Positions 15,506 to 31,013 of a stretch of 64,000 nucleotides of DNA are shown one piece after another. The notes under the pieces were generated by a model, which had not been told where the DNA came from, did no database searches, and saw only the letters and a program-made list of their open reading frames with translations. The position numbers and the translations under genes were made by a program. Each line of letters begins with the position of its first letter. The stretch's first letter is position 1. Source of the stretch: Brevundimonas sp. (GTDB lineage: Bacteria > Pseudomonadota > Alphaproteobacteria > Caulobacterales > Caulobacteraceae); NCBI RefSeq assembly GCF_013912065.1, contig NZ_JACESA010000016.1, positions 1-64,000 of the forward strand, given 5' to 3'.

Positions 15506-16441
15506 TTAGGTCGCGCCAGCCTCGGCAAGCACAAGTTCGGGAAAGGGCGCCCGAGCTGGAGCGTAGCGCGCGGTCATTTCGGCGCAGAAATCGGCGAACT
15601 CTTCCGGAACTTGGGGCGGGCTGGTGTGATGGGCTTCCAGTCCGCGATGCTCCGGCGTGAAGCAGAAGGTCACGGTCACGTCGAAGTCCGCCAGGGCTTC
15701 CATCTGTCGGTCGAACCAGTCGAGCGCGCCCTCGCGATAACGGTCCGCCCAGGACAGGCCGGTGCGTAGTCGACGCACCCCCAGATCCTTCAGCCAGTGT
15801 ACGGCCTCGTCCAGACGGTGGTCCTGGAAGTGGAACCACTGGCAGATGCCCATCTCTTCCGCATAGGGCCGGAACGCCTCCACGGCCGGCTTGGGCGAGC
15901 CGTCCTCGCGCAATAGTCCCATGTGGAAATGCCGGTAGTAGGAAGAGCCTTCCGCCTCGCGGTGGCGCGTGGTCGCCTCCCAACTCCGCGGCAGGTCGTA
16001 GAGACTGTACCAGTGGATGCGCGGCGCCTGGCCGATCAGCAACTCGGCGGTCCTCTTCACCCCCCAGGCCTGGACCTCCTCGGAGCCGAAGGCGGAGACG
16101 CCGACTTCCGTCACCCAGACGGGCTTGTTGGTCACAGCCTTGATCTCCTGGATCCTAGCCGGCCATTCGTCGATCGGCCACAGATTCCAGTCCAGCGGAA
16201 ACCCGTGGACGGCGACGACGTCGATCGCCTCCATAACCCCTTTCGCCTCCAGCCGTTGAACGAAGGAGGGATCGATCGGAGACATGCCGCCGAGCACACG
16301 TGTGATCGTCGGGTTCTCTGCCCGGACGGCCGCTCCCGCCAGGCGCGTCATGTCGGCGAACCGCTCCCACTCGGGGTCCAGCAGAGGATCCCAGTGCGAC
16401 TTGTTGTTGGGCTCGTTCCAAAGCTTCACGGCTTCGATCAT
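15506..16441 (-). CDS. Glycoside hydrolase (clan GH-A type) with apparently permuted barrel
   Basis: A 311-residue protein with beta-xylosidase/GH39-like motifs in an unusual order. The chain opens almost directly with LWNEPN (Glu10, normally the acid/base at the end of strand 4). WVTEVG follows (Glu112, normally the nucleophile at the end of strand 7), then WYSLYDLP (strand 8). Only then come what look like strands 1-3: GICQWFHFQDHRLDEAV (199-213), RRLRTGLSWADR and VTVTFCFTPEH (255-265), ending at FCAEMTARYAP, the helix that normally precedes strand 4. No signal peptide is seen, so the protein is cytoplasmic. Its ATG shares one base with the methyltransferase stop (TGATG), so translation is coupled. 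Last gene of the ino1 operon. The substrate is unknown; trimming or transglycosylation of the cluster glycan is inferred. Confidence 0.82.
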   Translation of the reverse strand: MIEAVKLWNEPNNKSHWDPLLDPEWERFADMTRLAGAAVRAENPTITRVLGGMSPIDPSFVQRLEAKGVMEAIDVVAVHGFPLDWNLWPIDEWPARIQEIKAVTNKPVWVTEVGVSAFGSEEVQAWGVKRTAELLIGQAPRIHWYSLYDLPRSWEATTRHREAEGSSYYRHFHMGLLREDGSPKPAVEAFRPYAEEMGICQWFHFQDHRLDEAVHWLKDLGVRRLRTGLSWADRYREGALDWFDRQMEALADFDVTVTFCFTPEHRGLEAHHTSPPQVPEEFADFCAEMTARYAPARAPFPELVLAEAGAT

Positions 16442-17229
16442 CAGCGGGCTCCATTGGATTTGTCGTGACCGTTGGCGACTGGACGAGCGGGATAGACGGG
16501 GCCGGCGTCGGTCGGTCGATCGACGCGGCGGCACAGGTAGACCTCCTCTTCGGGTCGCTCGAGCAGGTGAAAGCCCGCACTCCTCAGCATGGCCGCGCTG
16601 GCCGAGGCGTTGGGCGCCCACCAATTGGTCCAGTCGGAGGCGTAGCGGTGCTCGATGAAGTGCAGCTTCGGATAATCCGGGCGGTCGAAGTGGGACGTTT
16701 CGGAGAAGTCGTAGTCGACTTCCGGCTCGAAAATCTGCTGGGAGCCCCGCTGCATCGACTGAAAGAGCAGCAGATCGTCGGCCACGTGCTCGTGGATCAG
16801 ATCAAGCGCCAGCAGGGGGTGACGCAGGTGGTAGAGGACGCCCATGAAGATGACGAGATCGAACCGCTCGCCCAGGGCCGCCAGGTCATAGACGGACAGT
16901 TTGCGGAACTCGACATCGACGCCCTCGACCTCGGCGGCTAGTCGCGCCTGGTCCAGATAGCGGTCGTCGAAGTCGATCCCCAGCACCCGGTCGGCGCCGC
17001 GACGCTTCATTTCCAGCGAATAGAAGCCGGCGTTGCAGCCGATGTCGAGCACGCTTCGGCCGCTCATGTCCTCAGGCACCACCTGGGCGAAGCGGGAGAA
17101 TTTGTTGGCGGGATAGTCGTGAAGGAAGTGGTCGGGCGCGGTGCGGACCCCCTTCAGCTCCATATTGTGAAACCAGGGGCCGAGTTCGGCGATGCGGGCG
17201 CGGACCTGTTTGGCGGTCAGTTCAGCCAT
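16441..17229 (-). CDS. SAM-dependent methyltransferase, CmoB-like
   Basis: A 262-residue class I methyltransferase. PWFHNMELKGV (18-28) and HDYPANKFSRF (37-47) resemble the region preceding the SAM fold in CmoB-like enzymes. Motif I is LDIGCNAGFY (61-70), followed by GIDFDDRYL and the motif IV region FDLVIFMGVLYHLRHP. The substrate is not the tRNA of true CmoB judging by context: the gene lies inside a sugar/inositol operon. Methylation of an inositol or glycan hydroxyl is the inference. The start gives MAELTAKQ and overlaps the 3' end of the phosphatase gene by 8 bases (ATGGCTGA); a start four codons earlier is possible. Confidence 0.85.
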   Translation of the reverse strand: MAELTAKQVRARIAELGPWFHNMELKGVRTAPDHFLHDYPANKFSRFAQVVPEDMSGRSVLDIGCNAGFYSLEMKRRGADRVLGIDFDDRYLDQARLAAEVEGVDVEFRKLSVYDLAALGERFDLVIFMGVLYHLRHPLLALDLIHEHVADDLLLFQSMQRGSQQIFEPEVDYDFSETSHFDRPDYPKLHFIEHRYASDWTNWWAPNASASAAMLRSAGFHLLERPEEEVYLCRRVDRPTDAGPVYPARPVANGHDKSNGAR

Positions 17230-17809
17230 GCGGGACCTCATTCAGTCTAAGAAGCTTCAGGCCGTCGGCCGAGGCCTCGACCGTGGTGATCGACCCGGGC
17301 GACACCTCGAACCGATCATGACGTCCGATCGACAGGCCAAGAACGAGGGCCACCACGGACTTGATCACGTCGGCGTGGCTGACCGCCGCCACCGTACCGG
17401 CCTCGGTCGCCCAGAGGGTTTCGAGCCATCGCGACAGACGGGTCTGCACCTCCAGCATCGACTCGCCGTTGGGTGCGCGGGCCTGGTCGCGTTGCGCGTT
17501 CCACCTGCGCCACTCGGGCAGAGGGTCAAGCTCCGTGAAGGCGCGGCCGGTCCAGTCGCCGAAGTCGATCTCGTTCAAGGCTTGTTCCTCCTCAAGTGGC
17601 CGGTCGTGGGCGGCGGCGATGATCGCTGCGGTCTGGCGCGTCCGTTCCAGCGGGCTGGTCAGGACCCGGTCCGGACGGGACAGAACGCGCGCCACCGCCC
17701 GGGATTGCCTCAGACCGACCTCGCCCAGCTCGACGCCCGCCGCGCGCCCGCAAAGCTGTCGCGACACCAGGTCGTGGCTGCCGTGCCGAACCAGATGGAC
17801 GACGGTCAC
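17222..17809 (-). CDS. Histidine phosphatase (phosphoglycerate mutase-like)
   Basis: A 195-residue member of the histidine phosphatase superfamily. The GTG start gives [11 protein letters not shown] with the phospho-accepting His9 in the RHG motif. [15 protein letters not shown] and the second catalytic histidine in AVSHADVIK follow in the standard order, with Glu in [12 protein letters not shown] as proton donor. The GTG overlaps the ino1 stop (GTGA), which fixes the start and implies coupled synthesis. In this setting it could release inositol from inositol phosphate in place of a classical inositol monophosphatase, or act on a sugar phosphate; the sequence alone does not decide. Confidence 0.88.
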
Positions 17810-18927
17810 GAGACCAGGCGGGCGATCTTGCGATCGGCGGCGGTCGTCGCAGGCTCGTCCTCGACGAAGCGCCGCGTCCGTTCTCGGGCCTCTTCGTCCG
17901 TGAACTGTTGCGGCGGGGATTTCATGAACCAGCTGGACGGACCGATCAGGGGGCCGGACACGCCGCGATCCATTGCGATCTTGGCGCACCGCACGGCGTC
18001 GATCACCACGCCCGCGCTGTTGGGGCTGTCCCAGACTTCGAGCTTGACCTCCATGCTGATGGGCACGTCGCCGAAGGTGGTGCCCTCCAGCCGGATGTGC
18101 GCCCATTTGCGATCCGTGAGCCAGGGCACGAAATCGCTGGGGCCGACATGCACGTCGTCTTCGGCCAGGGGCACGTCGAACTGGCTGGCGACCGCCTGGG
18201 TCTTGGAAATCTTCTTGGACGTCAGCCGCTCGCGCTCCAGCATGTTCTTGAAGTCGGAGTTGCCGCCGAAATTGAGCTGATAGGTGCGGTCGATACGCAC
18301 CCCCCTTTCCCGCATCAGGTTCGCCAGCACCCGGTGCACGATGGTGGCGCCCACCTGGCTCTTGATGTCGTCGCCGATGATCGGCAGGCCACGCGCCTCG
18401 AAACGCCGCGCCCATTCGGGGTCCGACGCGATGAAGACGGGGATGCAGTTGACGAAGGCGCAGCCCGCCTTCAGCGCCTGCTCGGCGTAATATTCCGTGG
18501 CCCGCTGCGATCCGACCGGCAGATAGGAGACCAGCACGTCGGTTCCGCTTTCCAGCAACGCCTGGGCGACATCGACCGGAGGCTCGGGACTCTCCTCCAG
18601 TTCGTCGGCCATATATCGCCCGATCCCGTCGAGCGTCGGGCCTCTCGCCACCCGCACGCCGGATGGTGGAGGCGAGGCGAAACGGAAGGTGTTGTTGGGC
18701 GGCGCGAAAATGGCGTCCGACAGATCTCGCCCGACCTTGGCGGCATGGATGTCGAAGGCGGCGACCACCCGCATGTCCTCGACGCGGTAGCCGCCGAGCT
18801 CGACGTTCATCAAACCGGGCGGGGGGGCGTTGTTCGCGGCCGAGCGATAATGGGCGAGGCCCTGCACGAAGGACGACGCGCAGTTTCCGACGCCGACGAT
18901 GCCGATCCGTACGGAGTTGTGCTGCAT
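17806..18927 (-). CDS. ino1: Inositol-3-phosphate synthase
   Basis: Converts D-glucose 6-phosphate to 1D-myo-inositol 3-phosphate with an enzyme-bound NAD cycle, the committed step of inositol synthesis. The 373-residue length fits the short bacterial form. The NAD-binding [12 protein letters not shown] (9-20) is followed by [11 protein letters not shown] (185-195) and [10 protein letters not shown] (221-230), the family's active-site signatures. First gene of the leftward operon ino1 - phosphatase - methyltransferase - glycoside hydrolase, all overlapping. Its promoter faces the rightward sugar operon across 262 bases. No CDP-alcohol phosphatidyltransferase is nearby, so phosphatidylinositol is not the obvious product. 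Confidence 0.95.
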
Positions 18928-18973
18928 CTGCTGATCCCTTGCAAAGCTGCGGCCCGCGTGGCCGCTTTAATGG

Positions 18974-18998
18974 AAGGATCTACAAAGCTGTCGGTTCC
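18974..18998 (-). promoter_or_regulatory. Candidate EcfG (general stress) promoter for the ino1 operon
   Basis: Read on the minus strand, GGAAC (18998-18994) is followed after 16 bases by CCTT (18977-18974). The alphaproteobacterial general-stress sigma factor EcfG/SigT recognises GGAAC-N16/17-CGTT, so there is one mismatch in the -10 part. Transcription would begin about 40 bases before the ino1 ATG. Confidence 0.4.
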
Positions 18999-19053
18999 GC
19001 TCACGGTGAAGTATAGACGATATGCGATCTGAATACAGAATATCGCGGTAGCC

Positions 19054-19124
19054 GTGTCGGATTTTGAACACTTGTAACACGCTGGAAAAATCGCGGTTTT
19101 GGTCAAGTGTTCAAAATTGAACAC
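19054..19124. promoter_or_regulatory. Paired operator in the divergent ino1/glycan promoter region
   Basis: Site 2 (19107-19124), GTGTTCAAAATTGAACAC, is a palindrome with perfect 8-base arms and a 2-base centre. Site 1 (19054-19071), GTGTCGGATTTTGAACAC, has the same right arm and a partly matching left arm. The sites start 53 bases apart, five DNA turns, so bound proteins would face the same side. In addition TTTTGAACACTTG (19062-19074) and CAAGTGTTCAAAA (19104-19116) are perfect inverted copies. The 5-N4-5 spacing of GTTCA/TGAAC is like Crp/Fnr-family boxes, and two such regulators lie at 29.3-30.8 kb; that link is inference. Confidence 0.65.
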
Positions 19125-19134
19125 CTAAAATTCT

Positions 19135-19160
19135 GGAACGGATAGGTAGAAGAAGAAGTT
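19135..19160 (+). promoter_or_regulatory. Candidate EcfG (general stress) promoter for the glycan operon
   Basis: GGAAC (19135-19139) is followed after exactly 17 bases by AGTT (19157-19160), one mismatch from the EcfG/SigT consensus GGAAC-N16/17-CGTT. The predicted start lies about 20 bases before the first ATG of the rightward operon, and operator site 2 is centred about 50 bases upstream of it, a position suited to an activator. Confidence 0.45.
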
Positions 19161-19189
19161 GCTCGGGTGAACCTGCCGGAGCCATTCTC

Positions 19190-19459
19190 ATGTCCGAAGC
19201 GAAACGCCTGACCGACCACGACGCCATTCGCCGCTGGGCCGAAGCCCGCGGCGCGCGCCCCTCTCGCGTCCGAAACACGACCGACGCCGACGGCGGCGGC
19301 GTGCTGCGTTTCGATTTCGGAGACCCGGAGGAAGCCCTGGAGGAAATCTCCTGGGACGACTTCTTCCGCGTCTTTGAAGACAGCCAACTCGCCCTGCTGG
19401 AACAGGACGAGACCAAGAGCGGCGAGACCAGCCGCTTCTCCAAATTCGTCAACCGCTGA
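19190..19459 (+). CDS. Small acidic protein of unknown function
   Basis: An 89-residue soluble protein, MSEAKRLTDHDAIRRWAEARG at the start, with the core VLRFDFGDPEEALEEISWDDFFRVFEDSQLALLEQ and a terminal SRFSKFVNR. It is rich in Asp and Glu and has no signal or membrane segment. I recognise similar short proteins in stress-related loci of other alphaproteobacteria but no function is established. It opens the rightward operon: GGAG lies about 9 bases before the ATG, and the next gene starts 13 bases after the stop. Its place behind a candidate EcfG promoter suggests a stress role. Confidence 0.8.
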   Translation: MSEAKRLTDHDAIRRWAEARGARPSRVRNTTDADGGGVLRFDFGDPEEALEEISWDDFFRVFEDSQLALLEQDETKSGETSRFSKFVNR

Positions 19460-19472
19460 GCCGGAGGAATCC

Positions 19473-20581
19473 ATGTCGGAAACTGTCCTCATCACCGGCG
19501 GCGCGGGCTTCGTCGGCCGTCATCTGTCGCGGACCCTGCTGGAGCAGGGCTATCGGGTGCGAGCGTTCGACAGCCTGATCGAGCAGGTGCATCCGACCTC
19601 CACGCGACCCGACGAACTCGATCCTGAGGTAGAGCTGATCGTCGGCGACATCCGCGATGAAGATCGGGTCCGGGTGGCCTTGGACGGCGTAGACAAGGTC
19701 GTTCACCTGGCGGCCGAGGTGGGCGTCGGGCAGAGCATGTATGCGATCGACCGCTACACCTCGGTGAATGAATACGGCACCGCCGTCCTGTTCCAGCAGT
19801 TGATCGACCGGCCGGTGCAGCGCGTGGTCGTCGCCTCGTCCATGAGCATCTATGGCGAAGGCCTTTATCGCACGGTGGACGGCGAACTGCGGCAGGAGGT
19901 CGTGCGGGGTCCGAGAAATCCCGACGGGTCGTGGGACCCGACCGACGCGCAGGGCCGGCCGCTGATCCCCGTTCCTACGCCGGAAACCAAGCAGCCGGCG
20001 CTGAAGAGCGTCTATGCGATCAACAAATTCGTTCAGGAGCGACTGACCCTCACCCTGACGGCCCAGTATGGGATGGAGAGCTGTGCGCTGCGGCTTTGGA
20101 ACATCTACGGGCCGGGTCAGGCGCTTTCGAACCCCTATACCGGCGTGTTGGCGATTTTCGCGTCACGGATCGCCAACGGCCAGGCGCCAATGGTGTTCGA
20201 AGACGGGCGGCAGCGGCGCGATTTCGTCCATGTCTCGGACGTCGCGCGGGCCTTCCTGCTGGCGCTGGAACGGCCCGAGGCGAACGGCGAGGTCTTCAAC
20301 ATCGGCTCCGGCGTGGACAGGACGGTGGACGAGGTGGCGCGGCTGCAGGCGGCCTCGATGGGGCGGCCGGATATCGCGCCGCAGATCACTGAAAAGGCGC
20401 GGGCCGGCGACATCCGGCACAACATCCCGGACCTGACCAAGGCGCGGGACCAACTGGGCTACGAGGCTCGCCAGGACTTCGCCGCCGGTCTGGAGGAACT
20501 GGCCGAATGGGTCGCGCGCCAGGAGGCTTTGGATCGCGTGGACCAGGCGCGCGGTGAACTGGAGCGGCGGGGGCTCGTCGC

Positions 20582-20585
<4 letters not shown>
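19473..20585 (+). CDS. NAD-dependent sugar epimerase/dehydratase
   Basis: A 370-residue extended short-chain dehydrogenase acting on a nucleotide sugar. It has the NAD-binding GGAGFVGRH (9-17), ASSMSIYGEG and the catalytic pair in YAINK (Tyr181, Lys185). RDFVHVSDVARAF in the C-terminal part is common to UDP-glucose 4-epimerases and dTDP-glucose 4,6-dehydratases; a long insert of about 40 residues (RGPRNPDGSWDPTD...) precedes the active-site tyrosine. GGAGGA lies 6 bases before the chosen ATG (MSETVLITGG); open sequence upstream belongs to the previous gene. Exact substrate unresolved. It overlaps the next gene by 4 bases. Confidence 0.9.
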
Positions 20586-21621
<1,036 letters not shown>

Positions 21622-21625
<4 letters not shown>

Positions 21626-22728
21626 GCATGCGACCGCGTCATGTGCTGATGACCACCGATGCCGTGGGAGGGGTCTGGACCTATGCGCTGGATCTCGCCG
21701 AGGGTCTGCTGGCGCGCGGCGTCGGCGTGACCCTGGCGGTTCTGGGACCAGCGCCGGGACCGGCCCACCGCCAGGCGGCGCGGCAGGTTGAAGGCCTGGC
21801 GCTGGTTGAAGTCGGACAGTCCCTCGACTGGCTGGCCGATCATCCCGAACAGCTGGAAGAGGCGGAGCGGGCGCTTCGAGGCCTGGCCGCGCGGAGCGGC
21901 GCCGACCTGGTCCATCTGAATGCGCCGGCGCTGCGGGGCGAAGGCGACTGGGGCGCGCCGGTGGTCGGCGTCTGCCACTCCTGCGTCGCCACCTGGTGGG
22001 ATGCGGTGCGCGGCACGGGCCTGCCGCAGGATTTCGAGTGGCGAACGAGTCGCTTGGCCGCTGGATATCGGGGTTGCGATCGGCTCACCGCGCCCAGCCT
22101 GGCTTTCGCCCAGGCGACTGCGGCGCGCTACGGCGTTCAGCCCGTCGTCATTCATAATGGGAGGCGTCCTGCCGCTCTCCATGCCCCCGAGCGCCGGCGC
22201 ATGGTCCTGACGTCCGGCCGTCTCTGGGACGAGGGCAAGAACATCGCCGTCCTGGAGCGGGCGGCGGTTCGGATGCGGGGAGCGGTGGAGGCCGCCGGGC
22301 CGTTGGACGGCCCTAACGGCCAGACCGTGCGTCTGGCGAAGACTCGCGCCCTGGGCCCCTTGAGCGGGGAGGCGCTGCGGCGGCGGCTGACGGAGACCTC
22401 GGTCTTTTGCGCCCCCGCCCTGTACGAACCCTTCGGCCTGGGCGTGCTGGAGGCGGCGCAGGCGGGGTGCGCCCTGGTCCTGAGCGACATTCCGACCTTC
22501 CGCGAGCTTTGGGAGGGCGCTGCCTTGTTCGTTCAGCCGCGCGACGACGTCGCGCTTGCGGCTGTACTGGACGAGTTGCTGGACGACGCCGACCGGGCGC
22601 GCCGCCTGGGGCGGCTGGCGTCGGAGCGGGCCGGTCGGTTCAGCGTAGACGCCATGGTCGAGGGCACGCTCGAAGTCTATGCCGATGTACTCGCCCTGCG
22701 CGCCCCGTTGGGGGAGGCGGCGGCGTGA
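21622..22728 (+). CDS. GT4-type glycosyltransferase
   Basis: A 368-residue GT-B fold glycosyltransferase of family 4 type, which retains anomeric configuration and uses a nucleotide sugar. The N-terminal domain opens with RHVLMTTDAVGGVWTYALDLAEGL. The C-terminal donor-binding domain has TSGRLWDEGKN and the family EX7E motif in APALYEPFGLGVLEAAQAG (acidic residues of EPFGLGVLE). No membrane segment is seen, so it acts at the cytoplasmic face. The ATG at 21622 overlaps the previous stop (ATGA); an open extension upstream was rejected for that reason. Overlaps the next gene by GTGA. Confidence 0.9.
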
Positions 22729-23843
22729 AAACGGTCTATTTCACCCATTCCCTCGACTCCTGCTGGAACCACGGCAACGCCCATTTCCTGCGCGGCGTCA
22801 TGAGCGAACTGACCGCGCGCGGGCATCTGGCGGAGGCCTGGGAGCCGCGCGACGCGTGGAGCCGCGCCAATCTGGTGGCGGATCACGGCGAGGCGGGACT
22901 GGAGCCCTATAAACGCGCCTATCCCGAGCTTCAGAGCCATCGTTTCGACCCGCCGCTGGACCTGGACCGGGCGCTGGAGGGGGCCGACCTTGTCATCGTG
23001 CATGAATGGAACGATCCCGCGCTTGTGGCCGCCATCGGGCGACGGCGGGCGACGGGCCGTTTCACCCTTTTGTTCCATGACACCCACCACCGGGCCGTCA
23101 GCGAACCGGAGGCCATGAAGGCCTTCGATCTGTCGCGGTACGACGGAGTGCTCGCCTTCGGCGAAACCCTCGCGGAGGTCTATCGGCAGTGGGGCTGGGG
23201 CGACCGCGTCTTCGTCTGGCACGAGGCGGCCGACACCCGGCTGTTCCGCCCGCCGACCGTCGAACAAGACCGCGAGGGTCTGGTCTGGGTGGGAAACTGG
23301 GGCGACGGCGAACGGACGGCCGAACTGGAACGCTACCTGTTCGCGCCGACGGCGGCGACCGGGCTCGGGCTCGATCTTTATGGGGTCCGCTACCCCGAGG
23401 CGGCCAAGCGAATGCTGTCGCGATACGGGGTCCGGTATCATGGCTGGCTGGCCAATGCGGCCGCGCCCCAGGTGTTCGCCCGCCATCTCGCGACCGTGCA
23501 TGTGCCGCGCCGGTTCTATGTCGAACAGCTTCCCGGCATCCCGACCATACGGGTGTTCGAATCCCTGGCCTGCGGTCTTCCGCTGGTCAGCGCGCCCTGG
23601 TCGGACAGCGAAGGCCTGTTCGACGTCGGGCGCGACTTCCTGATGGTCCGGTCGAGCAGCGAAATGGCCGAGGCGCTGCGGGCGTTGAAATCGGACCCAG
23701 GCCTGCGCGCGGAACTCGCCGCCCATGGTCTGGCCGCGATCCGCGCCCGACACACCTGTGCGCATCGGGTCGACGAACTCATGGCGGTGCTCGAACGGCT
23801 CGGCGCCGTCGCGCCGTCCCCTCAAATGGAGATCGCGGAATGA
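22725..23843 (+). CDS. CgeB-type glycosyltransferase 1
   Basis: A 372-residue protein starting GTG (VKTVYFTHSLDSCWNHGNAHFLRG). The GT-B-like layout has an N-terminal domain with LVIVHEWNDPALVAAIGRRR and DTHHRAVSEPEAM, and a C-terminal domain with VGNWGDGERTAELERYL, GWLANAAAPQVFARHLATVHVPRR and RVFESLACGLPLVSAPW. These are the hallmarks of the CgeB/DUF3880 glycosyltransferase group, named for a Bacillus spore-coat maturation protein. The GTG is fixed by the GTGA overlap with the GT4 gene. First of three consecutive CgeB-like units, probably adding successive sugars. Confidence 0.86.
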   Translation: MKTVYFTHSLDSCWNHGNAHFLRGVMSELTARGHLAEAWEPRDAWSRANLVADHGEAGLEPYKRAYPELQSHRFDPPLDLDRALEGADLVIVHEWNDPALVAAIGRRRATGRFTLLFHDTHHRAVSEPEAMKAFDLSRYDGVLAFGETLAEVYRQWGWGDRVFVWHEAADTRLFRPPTVEQDREGLVWVGNWGDGERTAELERYLFAPTAATGLGLDLYGVRYPEAAKRMLSRYGVRYHGWLANAAAPQVFARHLATVHVPRRFYVEQLPGIPTIRVFESLACGLPLVSAPWSDSEGLFDVGRDFLMVRSSSEMAEALRALKSDPGLRAELAAHGLAAIRARHTCAHRVDELMAVLERLGAVAPSPQMEIAE

Positions 23844-24931
23844 AGATCGCCTTTTACGGTTCCAGCCTCCTGTCCGCCTACTGGAACGGCGCCGCCACCT
23901 ATTATCGGGGCCTGCTGGGCGCCCTGGCCGAAAAGGGTTGGGACATCCTGTTTCTCGAACCCGACGCCTTCGATCGTCAGCAGCACCGCGACATCGACCC
24001 GCCCGAATGGGCCGAGGTCGTGGTGTGGGAAAACTCCCCCCAGGGCTGCGCCGCCGCCATGGCGCGGGCGGGAGACGCGGATGTGGTGGTCAAGGCCTCG
24101 GGCGTCGGCGTTTTCGACCATGAACTTCTGGGCGTGTTCGACCGGGCGCGGGACGACGCCCTGACCGTCTACTGGGACGTCGATGCGCCGGCGACCCTGG
24201 CGGAGATCAGGGCCGCGCCCGACCACCCGCTGCGGCAGGTCCTGCCTCGGATCGACCATGTGCTGACCTACGGCGGCGGGTCTCCCGTGATCGAGGCCTT
24301 CATGGCGCTGGGCGCGCGGGATTGCCGCCCCATCTATAATGCGCTCGATCCCGCCACCCATCATCCGGTGCAGCCAGACGGGCGCTTTTCCGCGGATCTG
24401 GCGCTGTTGGCCAATCGCCTGCCTGACCGCGAATCTCGGATTGATCGGTTCTTCCTGGAGCCGGCGGCGCTGTCGCCCGAGCGACGCTTCCTGCTGGGAG
24501 GGAGCGGCTGGGGCGACAAATCCATGCCCGCCAATGTCCGCGCCGTCGGGCATGTGGGGACGGGAGAGCACAACGCCTTCAACTGTACGCCGCTGGCGGT
24601 CCTGAACGTGGCCCGCGACAGCATGGCCGAGATCGGCTTCTCGCCGGCCACCCGGGTGTTCGAGGCGACGGGGGCGGGGGCTTGCCTGATCACCGACTAT
24701 TGGGAGGGCGTGGACCAGTTCCTGAAGCCCGATGTCGAAGTGCTGGTGGCGCGCGACGGCAAGGACGTGGCCGATCATCTGGCGGCGCTGACGCCGGAAC
24801 GGGCGCGGGCCATCGGAGAGGCGGCGAGGGTCCGCGTTCTGGCCGACCACACCTATGCGAAGCGGGCCGAGACCGTCGACGCGCTGTTCAGAGGCGCGCT
24901 GACGGCGCGGCGCGAGAGGAGCGCCGCATGA
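23840..24931 (+). CDS. CgeB-type glycosyltransferase 2
   Basis: A 363-residue CgeB-like glycosyltransferase: MKIAFYGSSLLSAYWNGAATYYRGLLGAL, then ILFLEPDAFDRQQHRDIDPPEWAE and YWDVDAPATLAEI in the acceptor-side half. RFLLGGSGWGD, VGHVGTGEHNAFNCTPLAVLNVARDSM and TRVFEATGAGACLITDYW lie in the donor-binding half. Its N-terminal design closely parallels the next gene's first domain (SLLSAYWNG against SLSSAWGNG), so the two are paralogues from duplication, yet divergent enough to use different donors or acceptors. Linked by ATGA overlaps on both sides. Confidence 0.87.
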   Translation: MKIAFYGSSLLSAYWNGAATYYRGLLGALAEKGWDILFLEPDAFDRQQHRDIDPPEWAEVVVWENSPQGCAAAMARAGDADVVVKASGVGVFDHELLGVFDRARDDALTVYWDVDAPATLAEIRAAPDHPLRQVLPRIDHVLTYGGGSPVIEAFMALGARDCRPIYNALDPATHHPVQPDGRFSADLALLANRLPDRESRIDRFFLEPAALSPERRFLLGGSGWGDKSMPANVRAVGHVGTGEHNAFNCTPLAVLNVARDSMAEIGFSPATRVFEATGAGACLITDYWEGVDQFLKPDVEVLVARDGKDVADHLAALTPERARAIGEAARVRVLADHTYAKRAETVDALFRGALTARRERSAA

Positions 24932-27003
24932 GGCTGGTGGTGCTTGGGCTCAGCCTGTCCTCCGCCTGGGGGAACGGGCACGCCGTGACCTTCCGCGCGC
25001 TGCTTTCGGCCTTTGCGGCGCGGGGCCACGAGATTCTGTTCCTGGAGCGGGAGACGCCCTGGTACGCCGCGCATCGGGATCTGTCAGACCCCGACTACTG
25101 CCGCCTCGCCTTCTATTCGGACCTGCGGGACCTCGACCGCTACGGCGAGGCGGTGCGCGGCGCCGACGCGGTCATGGTCGGCTCTTATGTGCCGGACGGG
25201 ATCGAGGTCGGCCGATGGGTCCGGCGCACGGCCAAGGGCGTGGTCGCCTTCTATGACATCGATACGCCGGTCACCCTGGCGCGGCTGGCGCAGGGCGAGT
25301 GTGACTATCTCGCGGCGGGGCAAATCCCCGACTACGACGTCTATTTCTCCTTCACAGGCGGTCCCACGCTGGCGCGTCTGGAGCAGGAGTTGGATTCGCC
25401 GGCGGCGCGCGCCCTCTATTGCTCGGCCGACCCGGCGACGTACCGGCCGCAACAGGCCGAGAAGCGTTGGGATCTGTCCTATCTCGGAACCTATAGCGTG
25501 GATCGTCAGCCCACGCTGGAACGGCTGTTGCTCGAGCCGGCTCGACGGCTGCCCGGCCGGCGCTTCGTCGTGGCGGGGCCGCAGTATCCGGATGATATCG
25601 CCTGGCCGGCGAACGTGGAACGGATCGACCATCTGCCGCCGGCCGAGCATTCGACCTTCTACGCCGCCAGCCGCTTCACCCTGAACGTCACCCGCGCCGA
25701 CATGCGGGCGGCGGGACACAGCCCCTCCATCCGACTGTTCGAGGCGGCTTCGTGCGGGTGTCCGATCATTTCGGACACCTGGCCGGGGCTCGAAACCCTG
25801 TTCACGCCGGGAGAAGAAATCATCCTGGCGGAAACGGGCGACGCAGTCGTCGATGCGCTGTCGCGCCCGGCGGCCGCCGTCCAGGCCATGGGCGAGGCGG
25901 CCCGACGTCGCCTCCTCTCCCAACACACCCCCTCCCACCGCGCCCAGACCCTGGAGCGCGAATTGATCGCGGCCATGCGGGCCAAGACGAAGGACCGACC
26001 CATGAAGTCCATTTCCGACAGCCAAACCATCCTGGTGGCGGGCGGCGCCGGTTTCCTCGGCTCGCATCTGTGCGACCGTCTACTGGCGGACGGCCATCAC
26101 GTCGTCTGTCTCGACAATCTGCAGACCGGCGATCTGGTCAATCTCGAGTCGGCGATGAAGCAGTCCCGTTTCGAATTCGTGCGTCACGACGTGGTGGAGC
26201 CGTTGCCCGAGAGGATCGTCGAGCGGAAGTTCGACCGGATCTACGACCTGGCCTGTGCGGCCTCGCCGCCTCAGTACCAGCAGGATCCCGAGCATACGAT
26301 GCTGACCTGCGTGCTCGGCGTCAGCCATATGTTGAAGTTGGCGGAGAAGACCGGCGCACGCCTTCTGCTGACGTCCACCAGCGAAGTCTACGGCGATCCC
26401 GAGGTGCATCCGCAGCCCGAAACCTATCGCGGCAACGTCAATCCAATCGGTCCGCGGGCCTGTTACGACGAAGGCAAGCGGGCCGCGGAGAGCCTGGTGT
26501 TCGACTACGACCGCGCGGGTCGGTCGGACGTGAGGGTGGCGCGCATCTTCAACACCTATGGCCCGCGCCTGTCGGCGGCCGACGGTCGCGTGGTGTCCAA
26601 CCTTATCACCCAGGCTTTGGCTGACGCGCCCATCACCATCTACGGGGACGGGGAGCAGAGCCGGTCGTTCTGCTATGTCGACGACATGATCAGCGGCCTG
26701 ATCGCCCTGATGGAGCATGAAGGGCCTCAGCCCGGGCCGATCAACCTCGGCAATCCTGTCGAACTCAGCGTGTCGGAACTGGTCCGGCTGATACTGGACC
26801 TGACGGGCTCGGGATCCGAGATCGAGCACGGCCCCCTTCCAATCGACGATCCGCGCCGTCGGCGTCCGGACATCGGCAAGGCGGAAGCGGTGCTGGGGTG
26901 GCGTCCCACAACGGCGCTCGAGGACGGCCTGCGCCGCACGATCGACTGGTTCGACGCCGATCGCCGTCCGCTGCGCGGCGAACAGCCCGCCCTGATCGCC
27001 TGA
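24928..27003 (+). CDS. Fusion of CgeB-type glycosyltransferase and UDP-glucuronate decarboxylase
   Basis: One uninterrupted frame of 691 codons encodes two enzymes. Residues 1 to about 355 form a CgeB-like glycosyltransferase (MRLVVLGLSLSSAWGNGHAVTF; IRLFEAASCGCPIISDTWPGLETLF). Residues 359-691 form a UDP-xylose synthase-type SDR: GGAGFLGSH (372-380), SEVYGDPEVHPQPE, the signature GPRACYDEGKR with Tyr513 and Lys517, and RRRRPDIGKAEAVLGWRPTT. The second half should convert UDP-glucuronate to UDP-xylose, so donor synthesis and transfer are physically joined. An ATG at 26002 with AAGGA 8 bases upstream sits exactly at the junction, so a separate decarboxylase may also be made. It overlaps the previous gene by ATGA. 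Confidence 0.88.
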   Translation: MRLVVLGLSLSSAWGNGHAVTFRALLSAFAARGHEILFLERETPWYAAHRDLSDPDYCRLAFYSDLRDLDRYGEAVRGADAVMVGSYVPDGIEVGRWVRRTAKGVVAFYDIDTPVTLARLAQGECDYLAAGQIPDYDVYFSFTGGPTLARLEQELDSPAARALYCSADPATYRPQQAEKRWDLSYLGTYSVDRQPTLERLLLEPARRLPGRRFVVAGPQYPDDIAWPANVERIDHLPPAEHSTFYAASRFTLNVTRADMRAAGHSPSIRLFEAASCGCPIISDTWPGLETLFTPGEEIILAETGDAVVDALSRPAAAVQAMGEAARRRLLSQHTPSHRAQTLERELIAAMRAKTKDRPMKSISDSQTILVAGGAGFLGSHLCDRLLADGHHVVCLDNLQTGDLVNLESAMKQSRFEFVRHDVVEPLPERIVERKFDRIYDLACAASPPQYQQDPEHTMLTCVLGVSHMLKLAEKTGARLLLTSTSEVYGDPEVHPQPETYRGNVNPIGPRACYDEGKRAAESLVFDYDRAGRSDVRVARIFNTYGPRLSAADGRVVSNLITQALADAPITIYGDGEQSRSFCYVDDMISGLIALMEHEGPQPGPINLGNPVELSVSELVRLILDLTGSGSEIEHGPLPIDDPRRRRPDIGKAEAVLGWRPTTALEDGLRRTIDWFDADRRPLRGEQPALIA

Positions 27004-27049
27004 TGTGGGCAGAGCCGATCCGACCCCAGCCAAACAAGCGAGGAACACC

Positions 27050-28036
27050 ATGACCGAGGTTCTTGCCCAGAACGGCGCCATGCGCGCCGCAGTCGTGACG
27101 GGTCCAGGTCGAGTGGAGGTGCGTACGGTGGCTCGGCCCGAGCCGGACGCCGGTCAGGTTCGGATCAGGCTGGAGGGTTGCGGCGTCTGCGCCTCCAACC
27201 TCACCCCCTGGGCCGGTCCCGACTGGATGACCTTTCCGACGCCGCCCGGCGGTCTGGGCCATGAAGGATGGGGCGTCGTCGACGCCGTCGGACACGGCGT
27301 CACAGCCGTCGCGAAGGGACAACGGGTGGCGGCGCTCTCGCACAACAGTTTCGCCGAATACGACATCGCCGACGAGAGCGCGGTCGTGCCCCTCCCGCCC
27401 GAGCTAGACGACCTCCCGTTCGCGGGGGAGCCGCTGGGATGCGCCATGAACATTTTCCGGCGCAGCGAGATCAGCCCGGGCCAGACCGTCGCCATCGTCG
27501 GCATAGGCTTTCTGGGGGCGGTGCTGACGCGCCTGGCCACCGATGCGGGCGCGCGCGTCATCGCCCTGTCCCGTCGGCCCTATTCGCTGGAAGTCGCGCG
27601 CCGCATGGGCGCGGCGGAGACGCTGACCCTCGACGACCACTACGCCCTGATCGCCAAGGTGTCTGATCTGACAGACGGCCGACTCTGCGATGTCGTCATC
27701 GAAGCGGTCGGCAAGGCCTGGCCGCTGGATCTCGCGGCGGAGCTGACCCGCGAACGCGGGCGGCTGGTGATCGCCGGCTATCACCAGGACGGCCCGCGCC
27801 AGATCAATATGCAGCTGTGGAATTGGCGCGGCCTCGATGTGGTGAACGCCCATGAACGCGACCCCGCAGTCTATGCTCAAGGCGTGCGCGAGGCGGTGGA
27901 GGCCGTGCGTTCGGGCCGGCTGGACGTCAGCGGCCTCTTCACCCACGCCTATCCTCTCGATCAACTGGATCGGGCGCTGGACGCCACGCGCGACAGGCCG
28001 GACGGCTTCCTCAAGGCCGTGGTGACGATGCCATGA
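27050..28036 (+). CDS. Zinc-type alcohol dehydrogenase (MDR family)
   Basis: A 328-residue medium-chain dehydrogenase. The catalytic zinc site is represented by GCGVC (Cys47) and GHEGWG (His71, Glu72). NAD(P)-binding follows at VAIVGIGFLGAVLTRLA, and the substrate domain ends in GFLKAVV. The four-cysteine structural zinc loop of classical alcohol dehydrogenases is absent, as in sorbitol- and threonine-type relatives lacking that lobe. AGGAA lies 5 bases before the ATG (MTEVLAQNG). It sits 46 bases after the fusion gene and overlaps the following oxidoreductase by 4 bases, so the two probably act on the same sugar or inositol ring. Confidence 0.88.
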   Translation: MTEVLAQNGAMRAAVVTGPGRVEVRTVARPEPDAGQVRIRLEGCGVCASNLTPWAGPDWMTFPTPPGGLGHEGWGVVDAVGHGVTAVAKGQRVAALSHNSFAEYDIADESAVVPLPPELDDLPFAGEPLGCAMNIFRRSEISPGQTVAIVGIGFLGAVLTRLATDAGARVIALSRRPYSLEVARRMGAAETLTLDDHYALIAKVSDLTDGRLCDVVIEAVGKAWPLDLAAELTRERGRLVIAGYHQDGPRQINMQLWNWRGLDVVNAHERDPAVYAQGVREAVEAVRSGRLDVSGLFTHAYPLDQLDRALDATRDRPDGFLKAVVTMP

Positions 28037-29064
28037 CGGAGTTGGTCCTTGACCGCCATCGGTCTTCGGCGCTGCGTCGCCCCCGCGTCGGTTTCCTGGG
28101 CGTGGGCTGGATCGGCCGACACCGAATGGCCGCCATGCTGACCGACGGCCGGATCGACGCCGTCGCCGTCGCCGATCCGAACGCGGAGATGGTGGAGGAA
28201 GCCCTCGGCCTCGCCCCTACGGCCGCGCATTGCCCGCACCTGGACGGCCTGCTGTCTCAAGGGCTGGATGGGCTGGTCATCGCGACCCCGAGCGCCTTGC
28301 ACGCGAAGCAGACCATCCGGGCGCTGGACGCCGGCGTCGCCGTCTTCTGCCAGAAGCCGCTCGGCCGGGACGCGGCGGAGACGCAAGCCGCCATCGACGC
28401 GGCGAAGCGCGCCGATCGACTGCTTGCAGTGGACCTGAGCTATCGCCACACGGCGGCGGCGCAGGCGTTGCGCGACCTGATCAGCCAGGAGCGCCTAGGG
28501 CGTATCCATGCCGTCGATCTGACGTTTCACAACGCCTATGGACCCGACAAGCCCTGGTTCTACGACCCGGCGCTCTCGGGCGGGGGGTGCGTCATGGATC
28601 TCGGCGTCCACCTGGTGGACCTGTGTCTCTGGCTGCTGGACGACGACGTCGCCGACGTCGAGGCGCATCTGCTTCGCGAGGGCGTTCCGATCGCGGGACG
28701 CGCCGAGGCCGAGGATTACGCCATCGCCACCCTCCGGCTCCAGTCCGGCGCCGTGGTGCGGCTCGCCTGTTCGTGGCGGCTGCCGGCAGGTCGGGACGCG
28801 ATCATTGAAGCCGCCTTCTATGGCAGCGGCGGAGGTGCGGCCCTGCGCAATGTCGATGGCTCCTTCTACGACTTCGAGGCGACGGCCTTCGACGGCGTGA
28901 CCCGCCGTCCGCTGGTCCAGCCGCCCGACGATTGGGGCGGTCGAGCGGCGCAATCCTGGGCGCGGGCCTTGGCGGCTGGCGGTCGATACGATCCGGCGGT
29001 TGAAGAATTGCGCAGGGTCGCCGCGACTCTGGACCGGATCTACGCCGCCGCCACATGCGCCTGA
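28033..29064 (+). CDS. Gfo/Idh/MocA family oxidoreductase
   Basis: A 343-residue NAD(P)-dependent dehydrogenase of the family that includes inositol dehydrogenase IolG and glucose-fructose oxidoreductase. It has the Rossmann motif GFLGVGWIGRH (20-30). CQKPLG (105-110) replaces the usual EKP but keeps the catalytic Lys107. GGGCVMDLGVHLVDLCLWLL supplies the Asp and His of the active site. With ino1 in the divergent operon, an inositol or inositol-derivative substrate is a reasonable inference but is not shown. Last gene of the rightward operon; its final 25 bases overlap a small gene on the opposite strand. Confidence 0.88.
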   Translation: MTELVLDRHRSSALRRPRVGFLGVGWIGRHRMAAMLTDGRIDAVAVADPNAEMVEEALGLAPTAAHCPHLDGLLSQGLDGLVIATPSALHAKQTIRALDAGVAVFCQKPLGRDAAETQAAIDAAKRADRLLAVDLSYRHTAAAQALRDLISQERLGRIHAVDLTFHNAYGPDKPWFYDPALSGGGCVMDLGVHLVDLCLWLLDDDVADVEAHLLREGVPIAGRAEAEDYAIATLRLQSGAVVRLACSWRLPAGRDAIIEAAFYGSGGGAALRNVDGSFYDFEATAFDGVTRRPLVQPPDDWGGRAAQSWARALAAGGRYDPAVEELRRVAATLDRIYAAATCA

Positions 29065-29258
29065 TAGACGACGCTGTCGCCGGCGTCGAAGAGGACGAGG
29101 TCCAGCCTTGCCGAATAAACGCCTCTAAGCGCTTGGTCGCGTAGCAGATCACCCAGCGTCAGCAACGCTTCACGACGTGCGGCGTTGTCATCCGCAGCCA
29201 TGAATTCAAGGCGCTCGTCCAAACCGGCGACGCCCAGCTGAAGCCGATATCCGGTCAT
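29040..29258 (-). CDS. Small protein of unknown function
   Basis: A 72-residue open frame starting MTGYRLQLGVAGLDERLEFMAADDNAARREALLTLGDLL. It has a regular alpha/beta look and no signal or membrane segment. I do not recognise the family. It overlaps the 3' end of the Gfo/Idh/MocA gene by 25 bases, and its start lies 55 bases from the divergent Crp/Fnr regulator start. Codon choice and length make it plausible but not certain. Confidence 0.5.
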   Translation of the reverse strand: MTGYRLQLGVAGLDERLEFMAADDNAARREALLTLGDLLRDQALRGVYSARLDLVLFDAGDSVVYQAHVAAA

Positions 29259-29313
29259 GACTTCCTATACGCGCAAGTCGGAAAGGTGGATGAAAGAAGA
29301 GGGGATTTGTTCG

Positions 29314-30033
29314 ATGCTGGACATTCTGGTCCGCAAGCTCGAACGACGCGACGACCTTCGTGAGGGTCAGCGCGAAACCATTCGCCGACTGCCGCTCGAA
29401 CATCGGGTCGTGAGGGCGGGAGACCTGATCGTCCGTGAAGGCGATCGACAGCCCGTGAGCCTTCTTCTGATTTCCGGCTTCGCGGGACGGTTCGCCCTGC
29501 TCGGCAACGGAGGACGACAATTCACCGAACTGGCCCTGCCGGGGGACTTCATGGATTTACACGCCATGGTCATGAAGAGGCTCGATCACAGTGTGGCGGC
29601 GATCTCGACGTGCGAACTAGCGGCCATCCCCCACGGCGCCCTGAAGGCGGTGATGGCGAACGATCCTCATCTGGCGCGATTGTTCTGGCTTGAAACCGTC
29701 GTGGACGCCGCCATTCACCGGGTCTGGCTGGTTGCCCTCGGCCGCCAGGACGCCCAGGCCCGGATGGCGCATCTGTTTTGTGAGACCAAGGTCCGTCTGG
29801 AGGTCGTTGGACTGGCCACGGACGACGGTTTTGACTTCCCCCTGAACCAGACCGAGCTTGCGGACGTGCTCGGGCTGTCGACGGTGCACGTAAACCGAAC
29901 CCTCATGGCGCTTCGGTCCGCCCAGCTTGTGGATTGGAGGGACGGGCGGGTGATTCTGAACGACTGGCCCCGTCTAGTCCGTTTGGCGGAGTTCGATCCG
30001 CTCTATCTTCGACTATGGAAGGAAGCGGTTTGA
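29314..30033 (+). CDS. Crp/Fnr family transcriptional regulator
   Basis: A 239-residue one-component regulator. The N-terminal cyclic-nucleotide-like beta-roll (residues about 20-130, VREGDRQPVSLLLISGFAGRF) is followed by a long dimer helix and a C-terminal winged HTH, PLNQTELADVLGLSTVHVNRTLMALR. There is no cysteine cluster for an iron-sulphur centre, so oxygen sensing of the classical FNR kind is unlikely. AGAGGGG lies about 10 bases before the chosen ATG (MLDILVRKL); in-frame ATGs at 29257 and 29290 are alternatives. It lies just beyond the glycan operon and could be the protein that binds the paired operator at 19.1 kb, which is inference. Confidence 0.88.
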   Translation: MLDILVRKLERRDDLREGQRETIRRLPLEHRVVRAGDLIVREGDRQPVSLLLISGFAGRFALLGNGGRQFTELALPGDFMDLHAMVMKRLDHSVAAISTCELAAIPHGALKAVMANDPHLARLFWLETVVDAAIHRVWLVALGRQDAQARMAHLFCETKVRLEVVGLATDDGFDFPLNQTELADVLGLSTVHVNRTLMALRSAQLVDWRDGRVILNDWPRLVRLAEFDPLYLRLWKEAV

Positions 30034-30087: not shown

Positions 30088-30780
30088 TCAGCATCCGCAG
30101 GCGAAGCGCTCGAGTCTTTCGGCATCCGTGACGACCAGCCGCCCGCGCGACAGTATCACCGCTCCATCACGCTCCAGAGCCTTGACCGCCGCATTGACGC
30201 TTGTGCGTTGCACCCCCATGGCCTGCGCCAGGACAGCCTGAGTGGTTCGCAGTTCCCGGCCGGCCATCTGATACAGCCGAAAAATCCAGTTCGCCGTTCG
30301 CTGCGGGACCTGGTGAACCGCATTGCAGGCCGCCTCGGCCTGAACGCGCACCAAGCGATCCAGGGCGTGACGGGCGAAGACGTGTTCCACCCATGTCTGA
30401 CCCATCAGGTCCGTGAGATCCTCGGCCGGCGCCTCAATCCATTGCGAACCCAGCATCGCCAGAAACCGCGTCGGGTAAACAGAGGACGTCAGCGATGTTT
30501 CCCAGCCGAACATCGAACCTCGTCCATGCAGGCTGACGCAGGCGATATTCTTGCGGTCGAACGCGGCCACCGCGCCATCGACGACAAACCCGACCGTCGC
30601 GCCCGTCGTGGCGCATTCTCCAGCGGCAAGGCTGCGCAACCGCCCCCGATCCCGGATCAGGCCCTGCACCTCGTCCGGCATCAGCCGAAGGACAGGATGA
30701 TCGAGAACAGCCTGGGACCGGGCGTCGATCCGCACCGGCTCAGGGCGAAAGGTCTCTTCGTAAGAGGCTGAATCCAGCAT
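30088..30780 (-). CDS. Second Crp/Fnr family regulator
   Basis: A 230-residue regulator converging on the previous one (54 bases between stops). The N-terminal beta-roll is less canonical: SLAAGECATTGATVGFVVDGAVAAF and SLHGRGSMFGWETSLTSS. The C-terminal HTH is clear: RTTQAVLAQAMGVQRTSVNAAVKALERDGAV. The start is uncertain; the ATG (MLDSASYEETF) is used here, while a GTG at 30819 would add 13 residues. Neither has a well-placed Shine-Dalgarno sequence. It lies between the first Crp/Fnr gene and the catalase operon, and may control either. Confidence 0.83.
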   Translation of the reverse strand: MLDSASYEETFRPEPVRIDARSQAVLDHPVLRLMPDEVQGLIRDRGRLRSLAAGECATTGATVGFVVDGAVAAFDRKNIACVSLHGRGSMFGWETSLTSSVYPTRFLAMLGSQWIEAPAEDLTDLMGQTWVEHVFARHALDRLVRVQAEAACNAVHQVPQRTANWIFRLYQMAGRELRTTQAVLAQAMGVQRTSVNAAVKALERDGAVILSRGRLVVTDAERLERFACGC

Positions 30781-31013
30781 GCCTCTAACGTGCCGACCGG
30801 TTAAGGCGAAGGCATTCACATAGGTTATCAGTTTTCCGACAGAACATCTTTTCTCGCGGACGTGTGAAGGGACGGGCGACTGTGGCCTGTACAGGCGACC
30901 GGGCGTATCCGCGTCGAATGGGTCCAGGCCGAGGTTCAGCTTGGCTGGATTTTCTAAGTCTGAGCGGTGACGGCGACGCGGGCGCCGCCGTCACCGCTGA
31001 ACTGCGGGATTAC

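Follow-up and report, generated by a model that had tools for sequence, protein, structure and literature searches.

What do the thirteen genes at positions 15,506 to 29,064 of a Brevundimonas sp. contig (NZ_JACESA010000016.1, assembly GCF_013912065.1) make, and when are they used? They combine an inositol-3-phosphate synthase (Ino1) with sugar epimerases, glycosyltransferases and two oxidoreductases, in two divergent operons within a stretch of 64,000 nucleotides that was analysed as a whole (the window). The answer we favour, with about as much doubt as confidence, is that this is a general-stress-response cluster for the cytoplasmic synthesis of a small, soluble oligosaccharide that contains xylose and is carried on inositol in the variant that encodes Ino1, and that the product is protective. 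A preliminary description of the window had proposed an inositol-headed, xylose-containing, perhaps O-methylated glycoconjugate made under stress. That interpretation is partly supported: the cluster as a unit, its xylose and its stress connection stand, the identities suggested for the methyltransferase and one oxidoreductase do not, and the inositol head stands at most for one variant.

Gene content and co-inheritance

The left operon, on the minus strand, encodes a hydrolase, a methyltransferase, a histidine phosphatase and Ino1, with successive overlaps of 1, 20 and 4 bases. The right operon, on the plus strand, runs from a small acidic protein through two epimerases, a GT4 glycosyltransferase, two CgeB-like glycosyltransferases and a CgeB-UXS fusion to an MDR dehydrogenase and a Gfo/Idh/MocA oxidoreductase. 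Successive genes from the first epimerase to the fusion overlap by 4 bases, as do the MDR and Gfo genes, and an intergenic promoter gap (18928-19189) separates the operons. Start codons of the cluster genes were set from overlaps and alignments. All 13 genes lie where the preliminary description had placed them, in the divergent layout that it claimed. HYD, hydrolase; MT, methyltransferase; HP, histidine phosphatase; INO, Ino1; sAP, small acidic protein; EPI1 and EPI2, epimerases; CGB, CgeB-like; UXS, UDP-glucuronate decarboxylase; Gfo, Gfo/Idh/MocA oxidoreductase; NDP, nucleoside diphosphate.

15506..16441, minus strand: HYD, predicted circularly permuted clan GH-A hydrolase, 311 residues (PF11790 21.4 bits, cut-off 21; PslG match; AlphaFold2 model)
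16441..17241, minus strand: MT, TIGR04290 family methyltransferase (376.9 bits, cut-off 300)
17222..17809, minus strand: HP, histidine phosphatase (PF00300 5e-45)
17806..18927, minus strand: Ino1, inositol-3-phosphate synthase (PF01658; solved Ino1 1gr0)
18994..18998, minus strand: GGAAC half of a putative EcfG-type promoter, directed toward Ino1 (kept in 4 Caulobacterales rows)
19107..19124, no strand: perfect 18-bp palindrome GTGTTCAAAATTGAACAC, possible operator (half-site at 19062-19071)
19135..19160, plus strand: putative EcfG-type promoter GGAAC-N17-AGTT, directed toward the right operon (motif match)
19190..19459, plus strand: sAP, small acidic protein, 89 residues (no Pfam match; relatives in 19 of 85 loci)
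19473..20585, plus strand: EPI1, NDP-sugar epimerase 1, extended SDR with an insertion (PF01370 4e-52)
20582..21625, plus strand: EPI2, NDP-sugar 2-epimerase-like SDR (CDP-tyvelose 2-epimerase similarity)
21622..22728, plus strand: GT4 glycosyltransferase (PF13439 and PF00534)
22725..23843, plus strand: CgeB-like glycosyltransferase 1 (PF13524 1e-33)
23840..24931, plus strand: CgeB-like glycosyltransferase 2 (PF13524 5e-38)
24928..27003, plus strand: CgeB-like glycosyltransferase 3 fused to UXS (PF13524 6e-42, PF01370 8e-51)
27050..28036, plus strand: MDR zinc-type dehydrogenase (PF00107)
28033..29064, plus strand: Gfo/Idh/MocA oxidoreductase, partner of MDR (PF22725 1e-28)

Linkage was followed in 398 genomes drawn evenly from the phylum, among them the window's own. 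HYD (at least 67% identity) was present in 12 genomes, the TIGR04290 methyltransferase in 14 and an Ino1 domain in 36, and in all 12 HYD genomes MT adjoins HYD and Ino1 lies within about 5 kb. The hypergeometric probability of this co-occurrence is 3e-21 for MT and 4e-14 for Ino1, by a statistic that ignores kinship between genomes. Scattering of the genes in relatives had been named in advance as the outcome that would count against a single biosynthetic cluster; they are not scattered, and the cluster is a real inherited unit. Weak HYD matches (at most 37% identity) occurred in 13 further genomes, two of which led to the sister clusters described below.

At least 582 related stretches were found in genome contigs, and the best 80 of these were taken further. 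The comparison set consists of 85 loci selected by HYD (84 fetched and the window itself; individual loci have the prefix L). Most extend only 10 kb to each side, so that gene counts are lower bounds: Ino1 was counted in 83, HP in 81, MT in 80 and GT4 in 74. Named loci span the Caulobacterales, Hyphomicrobiales, Rhodospirillales, Acetobacterales, Sphingomonadales, Ramlibacter (Burkholderiales) and one gammaproteobacterial bin. The closest HYD record is from Brevundimonas aurantiaca (91% identity), and within the genus HYD was found at E 1e-50 in 6 of 131 genomes, including that of the window, a patchiness suggesting that the cluster probably moves or is often lost. Among plasmid records matched at 60% identity or more, 97 carry HYD and 97 carry Ino1, two counts that are not paired record by record. 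Sinorhizobium meliloti 2011 carries the complete cluster on pSymB (242413-257918), which makes the proposed reading directly testable.

The UXS domain is a UDP-xylose synthase by its match to human UXS1 (1e-104) and by a CYDEGKR sequence (the YxxxK motif) conserved in 28 rows; a UDP-glucose dehydrogenase family member is encoded elsewhere in the window's genome, and the two together uphold the claim that UDP-xylose is supplied. The fusion of UXS to a CgeB-like domain, also claimed beforehand, is present in the window. Fusion was seen in 4 loci, all from Brevundimonas and Hansschlegelia (three are truncated by the end of the locus inside UXS), and the two genes are separate neighbours in 30. 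By similarity EPI2 falls in the CDP-tyvelose 2-epimerase family (9rl0 1e-79, 1orr 6e-70; next best 1e-34), and the nearest solved structure to EPI1 is 6wjb, an NAD-dependent epimerase/dehydratase.

Several more specific identities failed against curated models. The methyltransferase had been called CmoB-like; it scores 68 bits against TIGR00452 (cut-off 275) and belongs instead to TIGR04290. GT4 reaches 36 bits against the MshA model (cut-off 462.5). Gfo had been linked to inositol dehydrogenases; it reaches 109 bits against the inositol 2-dehydrogenase (IolG) model TIGR04380 (cut-off 355), and Gfo and MDR are both far under the cut-offs of the inositol-dehydrogenase models.

Exchange of MDR and Gfo for a B12 radical-SAM protein

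In Azospirillum, where the variant was first seen, a radical-SAM gene stands in place of MDR and Gfo. The distribution of the two modules was surveyed in the whole genomes behind 80 loci, of which 78 were examined (49 and 29 in two batches). Radical-SAM proteins were counted as TIGR04295 (B12_rSAM_oligo) above the cut-off of 400, and weaker matches (100 bits or less) were counted as other radical-SAM proteins. TIGR04295 was found in 36 genomes (21/49 and 15/29) and MDR, at E 1e-60 or better, in 41 (28/49 and 13/29); no genome has both, and the only one with neither is a 2.2 Mb Sphingomonadales bin. Gfo (E 1e-40) occurs in exactly the 28 MDR genomes among 50 searched, adjoining MDR. On a quick HYD and Ino1 tree the state changes at least nine times (85 rows, 84 of them labelled, seven from local gene content only, the window's included; 21 of 82 inner branches have support under 80). 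The slot between EPI2 and GT4 holds the radical-SAM gene in Azospirillum and others (for example L030), and the MDR-Gfo pair in Ramlibacter (L093, L112) and L103. Mutual exclusion, repeated exchange and use of one operon slot suggest a single obligatory step with two solutions, which the radical-SAM protein and the MDR-Gfo pair would each serve; oxidation followed by reduction in turn suggests a net inversion.

It is possible, though the chances run against it, that the two modules make different decorations and that the clusters yield two alternative products. The nearest named family after TIGR04295 is BchE (92 bits, cut-off 481), and B12 radical-SAM enzymes are mostly methylases, which would suit such a division of labour. 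However, exactly one module is present in 77 of the 78 genomes, which suggests one obligatory step, and the number of swaps and the common slot likewise argue for a shared reaction. If the shared step is retained, the exchange is a natural experiment for assigning a reaction to an orphan B12 enzyme family.

The relatives of these enzymes lead to cyclitol-glycoside antibiotics. An SRGCPYxCxFC motif is common to 32 radical-SAM rows; Pfam detects the radical-SAM domain in the protein and the B12-binding domain just under its cut-off. Its nearest solved relative is 6fd2, apramycin biosynthetic oxidoreductase 4 (4e-7). The nearest to Gfo is 6jw6 (3e-26), named 'Dehydrogenase', which we take to be KanD2 of kanamycin synthesis. 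Enzymes such as KanD2 and the apramycin oxidoreductase act on cyclitol glycosides, and BtrN (radical SAM) and NeoA (MDR) exemplify a redox swap of this kind. The cluster resembles the kanamycin, apramycin and neomycin pathways in a synthase-made cyclitol, in glycosylation and in redox editing by Gfo/Idh, MDR or radical-SAM enzymes. It differs in that no aminotransferase is present in the window, in its EcfG-type promoters, alphaproteobacterial hosts and CgeB-like transferases, and in that one B12-type radical-SAM protein replaces two enzymes.

The window's MT and the sister-cluster radical-SAM protein fall in the curated NCBIfam families TIGR04290 and TIGR04295, but both models are 'hypothetical equivalogs' without a named function. 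The short name 'oligo' suggests that the curators suspected an oligosaccharide system; the gene families are known and the neighbourhood has been partly noticed. No paper on this cluster was found among those listed by searches of one open-access library, and print outside it may differ. The portions available of PMC8877191 and PMC3892343, searched for cluster terms, do not mention its genes. These searches turned up no description of the exclusive swap, of the EcfG-type promoters, of the permutation or of sister clusters lacking Ino1.

The inositol module and the permuted hydrolase

The window's genome (3.5 Mb in 45 contigs) yielded a single Ino1, which is an inositol-3-phosphate synthase by PF01658 (123 bits, cut-off 27) and aligns over residues 5-355 with 1gr0 (3.5e-145), presumably the Mycobacterium tuberculosis Ino1. 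A five-membered cyclitol phosphate synthase was considered and rejected, 6k96 matching at only 5e-61. HP is probably an inositol-3-phosphate phosphatase, because its gene adjoins Ino1 and is missing together with it from six sister stretches.

These six are L114 and L115, from the genome sample, and plasmid stretches of Rhizobium leguminosarum, Tistrella mobilis, Agrobacterium fabrum and Paracoccus. Neither Ino1 nor HP was found in any of the six stretches, and the whole genomes behind L114 and L115, the two of the six searched genome-wide, gave no Ino1 at E 1e-10. L114 and L115 contain EPI1, a HYD-EPI2 fusion, GT4, three CgeB-like transferases, UXS and MT, and one has MDR-Gfo and the other the radical-SAM gene; the plasmid stretches have the same layout. 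Their hydrolase is in unpermuted order and is fused to the N-terminus of EPI2. Both halves were detected in this order in L115, L125, L127 and L114, the smaller half of L114 matching at 7e-5. For L124 and L126 the larger half alone is over threshold, within a gene of about 2,040 bases. The sister clusters keep the core without Ino1, so that, judged by gene content, inositol supply goes with the permuted hydrolase and the core is independent of Ino1. The proposed inositol head is accordingly favoured at most for the Ino1 variant.

The strongest rival to our reading starts from this point. The conserved oligosaccharide may not be built on inositol at all, and Ino1, HP and the permuted HYD would then be an add-on that supplies free inositol, or caps the chain, in some lineages only. 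The sister clusters agree with this in keeping transferases, epimerases, UXS, MT and a redox module with no Ino1 or HP in the stretch, two of them in genomes where Ino1 was not detected. However, hosts lacking Ino1 may get inositol from soil, and in the majority of the 85 loci Ino1 and HP are neighbours of MT and HYD; we regard the add-on as unlikely, and keep to a chain carried on inositol where Ino1 is present.

By sequence and by its predicted fold, HYD is a circular permutation of a PslG-like barrel. It matches PslG, which we take to be a GH39-type hydrolase of Pseudomonas aeruginosa, in two swapped pieces, residues 200-295 aligning with chain positions 25-130 (weakly, 8.5 bits) and residues 3-193 with 132-328. 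When the sequence is rotated the match becomes a single piece and improves from E 1.1e-6 to 6.2e-11. Rotation also raises the local score against the unpermuted relatives (from 271 to 401 for L115 and from 251 to 328 for L114), and among the cuts tried the best-scoring lies near residue 195. The AlphaFold2 model (pLDDT 84), with strand numbers assigned by inspection, gives a barrel that opens at strand 4 (WNEPN) and closes with strand 3, followed by a helix. The putative catalytic Glu10 (in WNEPN, strand 4) and Glu112 (strand 7) are invariant in 39 rows. The predicted barrel, with glutamates at the ends of strands 4 and 7 in permuted order, places HYD in clan GH-A with the PslG-type enzymes.

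PslG was not among the 50 matches listed by each of Foldseek and VIA-align with the HYD model, a result that is uninformative either way; both gave generic barrels, as would be expected of sequential aligners, which cannot follow a permuted order. HYD resembles PslG across the barrel, including both putative catalytic glutamates, but differs in being cut just before strand 4. It also differs in its N-terminus: the modelled chain opens directly with the first strand of the barrel, and a signal peptide would not fit in front of it. HYD appears to be a clan GH-A barrel permuted in nature, with unpermuted relatives present in the sister clusters.

Putative stress promoters and the proposed product

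The motif GGAAC-N16-CGTT is given as the EcfG motif of Rhizobium etli in PMC3892343. Regions upstream of the cluster genes were scanned for GGAAC-N15-18-NGTT, with 89 permuted motifs and internal genes as controls. The motif precedes Ino1 in 38 of 83 loci and EPI1 in 24 of 70, compared with permuted-motif means of 2.5 and 1.65 and maxima of 18 (GGAAC with TTG) and 13 (CAGGA with GTT); before the internal genes HYD and CGB2 it occurs once in 84 and once in 70 loci. A stricter form ending in CGTT is found before Ino1 in 27 loci and before EPI1 in 12. Counted by genera and unnamed rows, 11 of 33 are positive on the Ino1 side and 10 of 29 on the EPI1 side. In the clusters lacking Ino1 it precedes EPI1 in five of six and MDR in four of four. 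The S. meliloti 2011 cluster has matches before EPI1, MDR and Ino1, and its 37 kb stretch has 15 in all, above the average of the 85 loci. In the window, GGAAC-N17-AGTT stands at 19135 before the right operon. A scan for sigma-70 promoters over 18800-29300 found none, shuffles giving only 0.8 on average. The cluster is apparently tied to the general stress response in many bacteria of soils and plants, and the earlier claim of a stress role gains support from these putative promoters in many relatives.

We propose the following route to the product. Ino1 would convert glucose-6-phosphate to inositol-3-phosphate, from which HP, encoded next door, would release inositol. UXS would provide UDP-xylose, and EPI1 and EPI2 two other nucleotide sugars, EPI2 acting by C-2 inversion. 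GT4 and the three CgeB-like transferases could then link about four sugars into a chain, which in this variant would be carried on inositol. MDR would oxidise one hydroxyl and Gfo/Idh reduce the ketone from the opposite face, the net inversion suggested above, and elsewhere a single B12 radical-SAM enzyme would perform this step. The TIGR04290 enzyme would O-methylate the product, and the permuted, retaining-type barrel of HYD would trim or recycle chains. The product may protect against drying, salt or oxidants. The scheme takes from sequence comparison the gene families, their co-inheritance, the exclusivity of MDR and the radical-SAM protein, the permutation and the promoter enrichment in relatives; from these we infer the substrates, the order of steps, the net inversion, the inositol acceptor and the protective role.

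A soluble product was preferred over a surface polymer in the preliminary description on account of missing genes, and this bears on the alternative in which the cluster feeds the synthesis of a surface glycan or glycolipid (exopolysaccharide, lipopolysaccharide or a lipid-linked glycan) with precursors and transferases. CgeB-like and GT4 transferases and PslG-like hydrolases are known from surface-glycan clusters, PslG is the nearest solved relative of HYD by sequence, and in S. meliloti SM11 a polysaccharide pyruvyl transferase family gene lies beside the cluster. However, no flippase, polymerase or initiating transferase was found among the window genes. Within the cluster stretches, the absence of a polymerase, flippase or phosphatidyltransferase extends to the families common to at least four loci. 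Simple hydropathy predicts a median of at least two helices for only three of these 54 families; by the annotation of L030 and L033 they are a DUF1003 protein, a cytochrome oxidase subunit and a potassium channel, the last encoded next to Azospirillum clusters. No such export and polymerisation genes having been found in these stretches, and the HYD model leaving no room for a signal peptide, we consider a surface glycan quite improbable. Glycosylation of a protein, perhaps sAP (89 residues, computed isoelectric point 4.75), can be set aside almost entirely. In its favour, the right operon opens with sAP, which has relatives in 19 of the 85 loci; against it, sAP was not found at E 1e-8 in the other 66, and is therefore unlikely to be a general acceptor.

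Several observations count against the soluble, stress-induced oligosaccharide that we prefer. Related loci are not independent of each other. Ino1 is not in every cluster, so that inositol may not be the general acceptor, and L093, L094, L103 and L112 have Ino1 and HYD with no TIGR04290 gene within the stretch. In 15 of the 21 radical-SAM genomes of the first batch only 45 of 47 to 78 MDR first-look candidates were scored, although absence of MDR from those 15 is very likely. An Agrobacterium plasmid stretch (L126) has MDR with no Gfo in view, a misfit to a strict two-enzyme step, and the PDB matches of Gfo and the radical-SAM protein given above are remote. Of 10 Azospirillum rows 2 have the Ino1-side motif, and none of the rows named Roseomonas has it. 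In the window itself the Ino1 side has only the GGAAC (-35) half, conserved in four Caulobacterales rows, with no matching -10, and the full motif was not found there. Lastly, a cytosolic hydrolase inside a synthetic operon is accounted for only as trimming.

A broader claim goes with our reading, and we put it forward as doubtful: that the cluster represents a new class of stress-protective cyclitol oligosaccharide in hundreds of bacteria, mostly alphaproteobacteria, made under the general stress response by a pathway in which the radical-SAM protein and MDR with Gfo/Idh are true functional equivalents. If it were true, the TIGR04295 protein would be the first known B12-type enzyme whose reaction is a net redox inversion of a sugar rather than a methylation; we know of no earlier B12-type radical-SAM enzyme with that activity. 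Should our main reading hold, rhizobia, Azospirillum, Methylobacterium, Microvirga and their relatives share a widespread stress metabolite that has been overlooked.

Two other inositol-containing systems invite comparison. The window's Ino1 is closest to the actinobacterial type (TIGR03450), and one Bradyrhizobium sister cluster also encodes a PIG-L deacetylase and another GT4, as in mycothiol synthesis; the mycothiol pathway was rejected on scores of 534 for Ino1 (cut-off 638) and, as given above, of GT4 against MshA. Bradyrhizose, an inositol-fused sugar of O-antigen, comes from a genus that also carries this cluster (PMC4743980). Its cluster is described there as having eleven genes in six photosynthetic Bradyrhizobium strains, and the comparison is by description only.

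Optional genes accompany the cluster in other hosts, each family being named from one example: a sugar nucleotidyltransferase (30 loci), a phosphopentomutase-like protein (18), a protein of 586 residues (17), a second GT4 (12), another methyltransferase (10), a GNAT protein (8) and, in L085, a PIG-L deacetylase. In this Bradyrhizobium locus (L085:10930-14807) the deacetylase, second GT4, GNAT and methyltransferase genes are inserted after HYD, an arrangement that recalls the first steps of mycothiol synthesis. A search run without a positive control did not detect the unannotated 586-residue family (L047:10972-12738 and 16 further loci) in the window's genome. The predicted model of this family matches choline and aminoglycoside kinases in part, and its N-terminal half contains, as read by eye, a motif like a phosphoribosyl pyrophosphate (PRPP) loop.

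Two of the four loci without TIGR04290 in the stretch belong to Ramlibacter (L093, L112), and we assume that the TIGR04290 model takes its name from a Ramlibacter locus tag. L124, L125 and L126 have genes of stress defence and DNA repair as neighbours (DUF1003, Ku, DNA ligase D, topoisomerase IB, UdgX and a ferritin-like protein), and L124 has 18 EcfG-like motif matches in 57,764 bases on both strands. In the intergenic gap of the window, the palindrome GTGTTCAAAATTGAACAC and its half-site at 19062-19071 are a possible operator; the 12-bp core of the palindrome occurs nowhere else in the window and is partly kept in B. aurantiaca (one alignment). Two Crp/Fnr-type regulators are encoded immediately downstream of the cluster, at 29257-30033 on the plus strand and at 30088-30819 on the minus strand (in the latter only the helix-turn-helix domain was detected), and relatives of the first lie near the cluster in several Bradyrhizobium loci.

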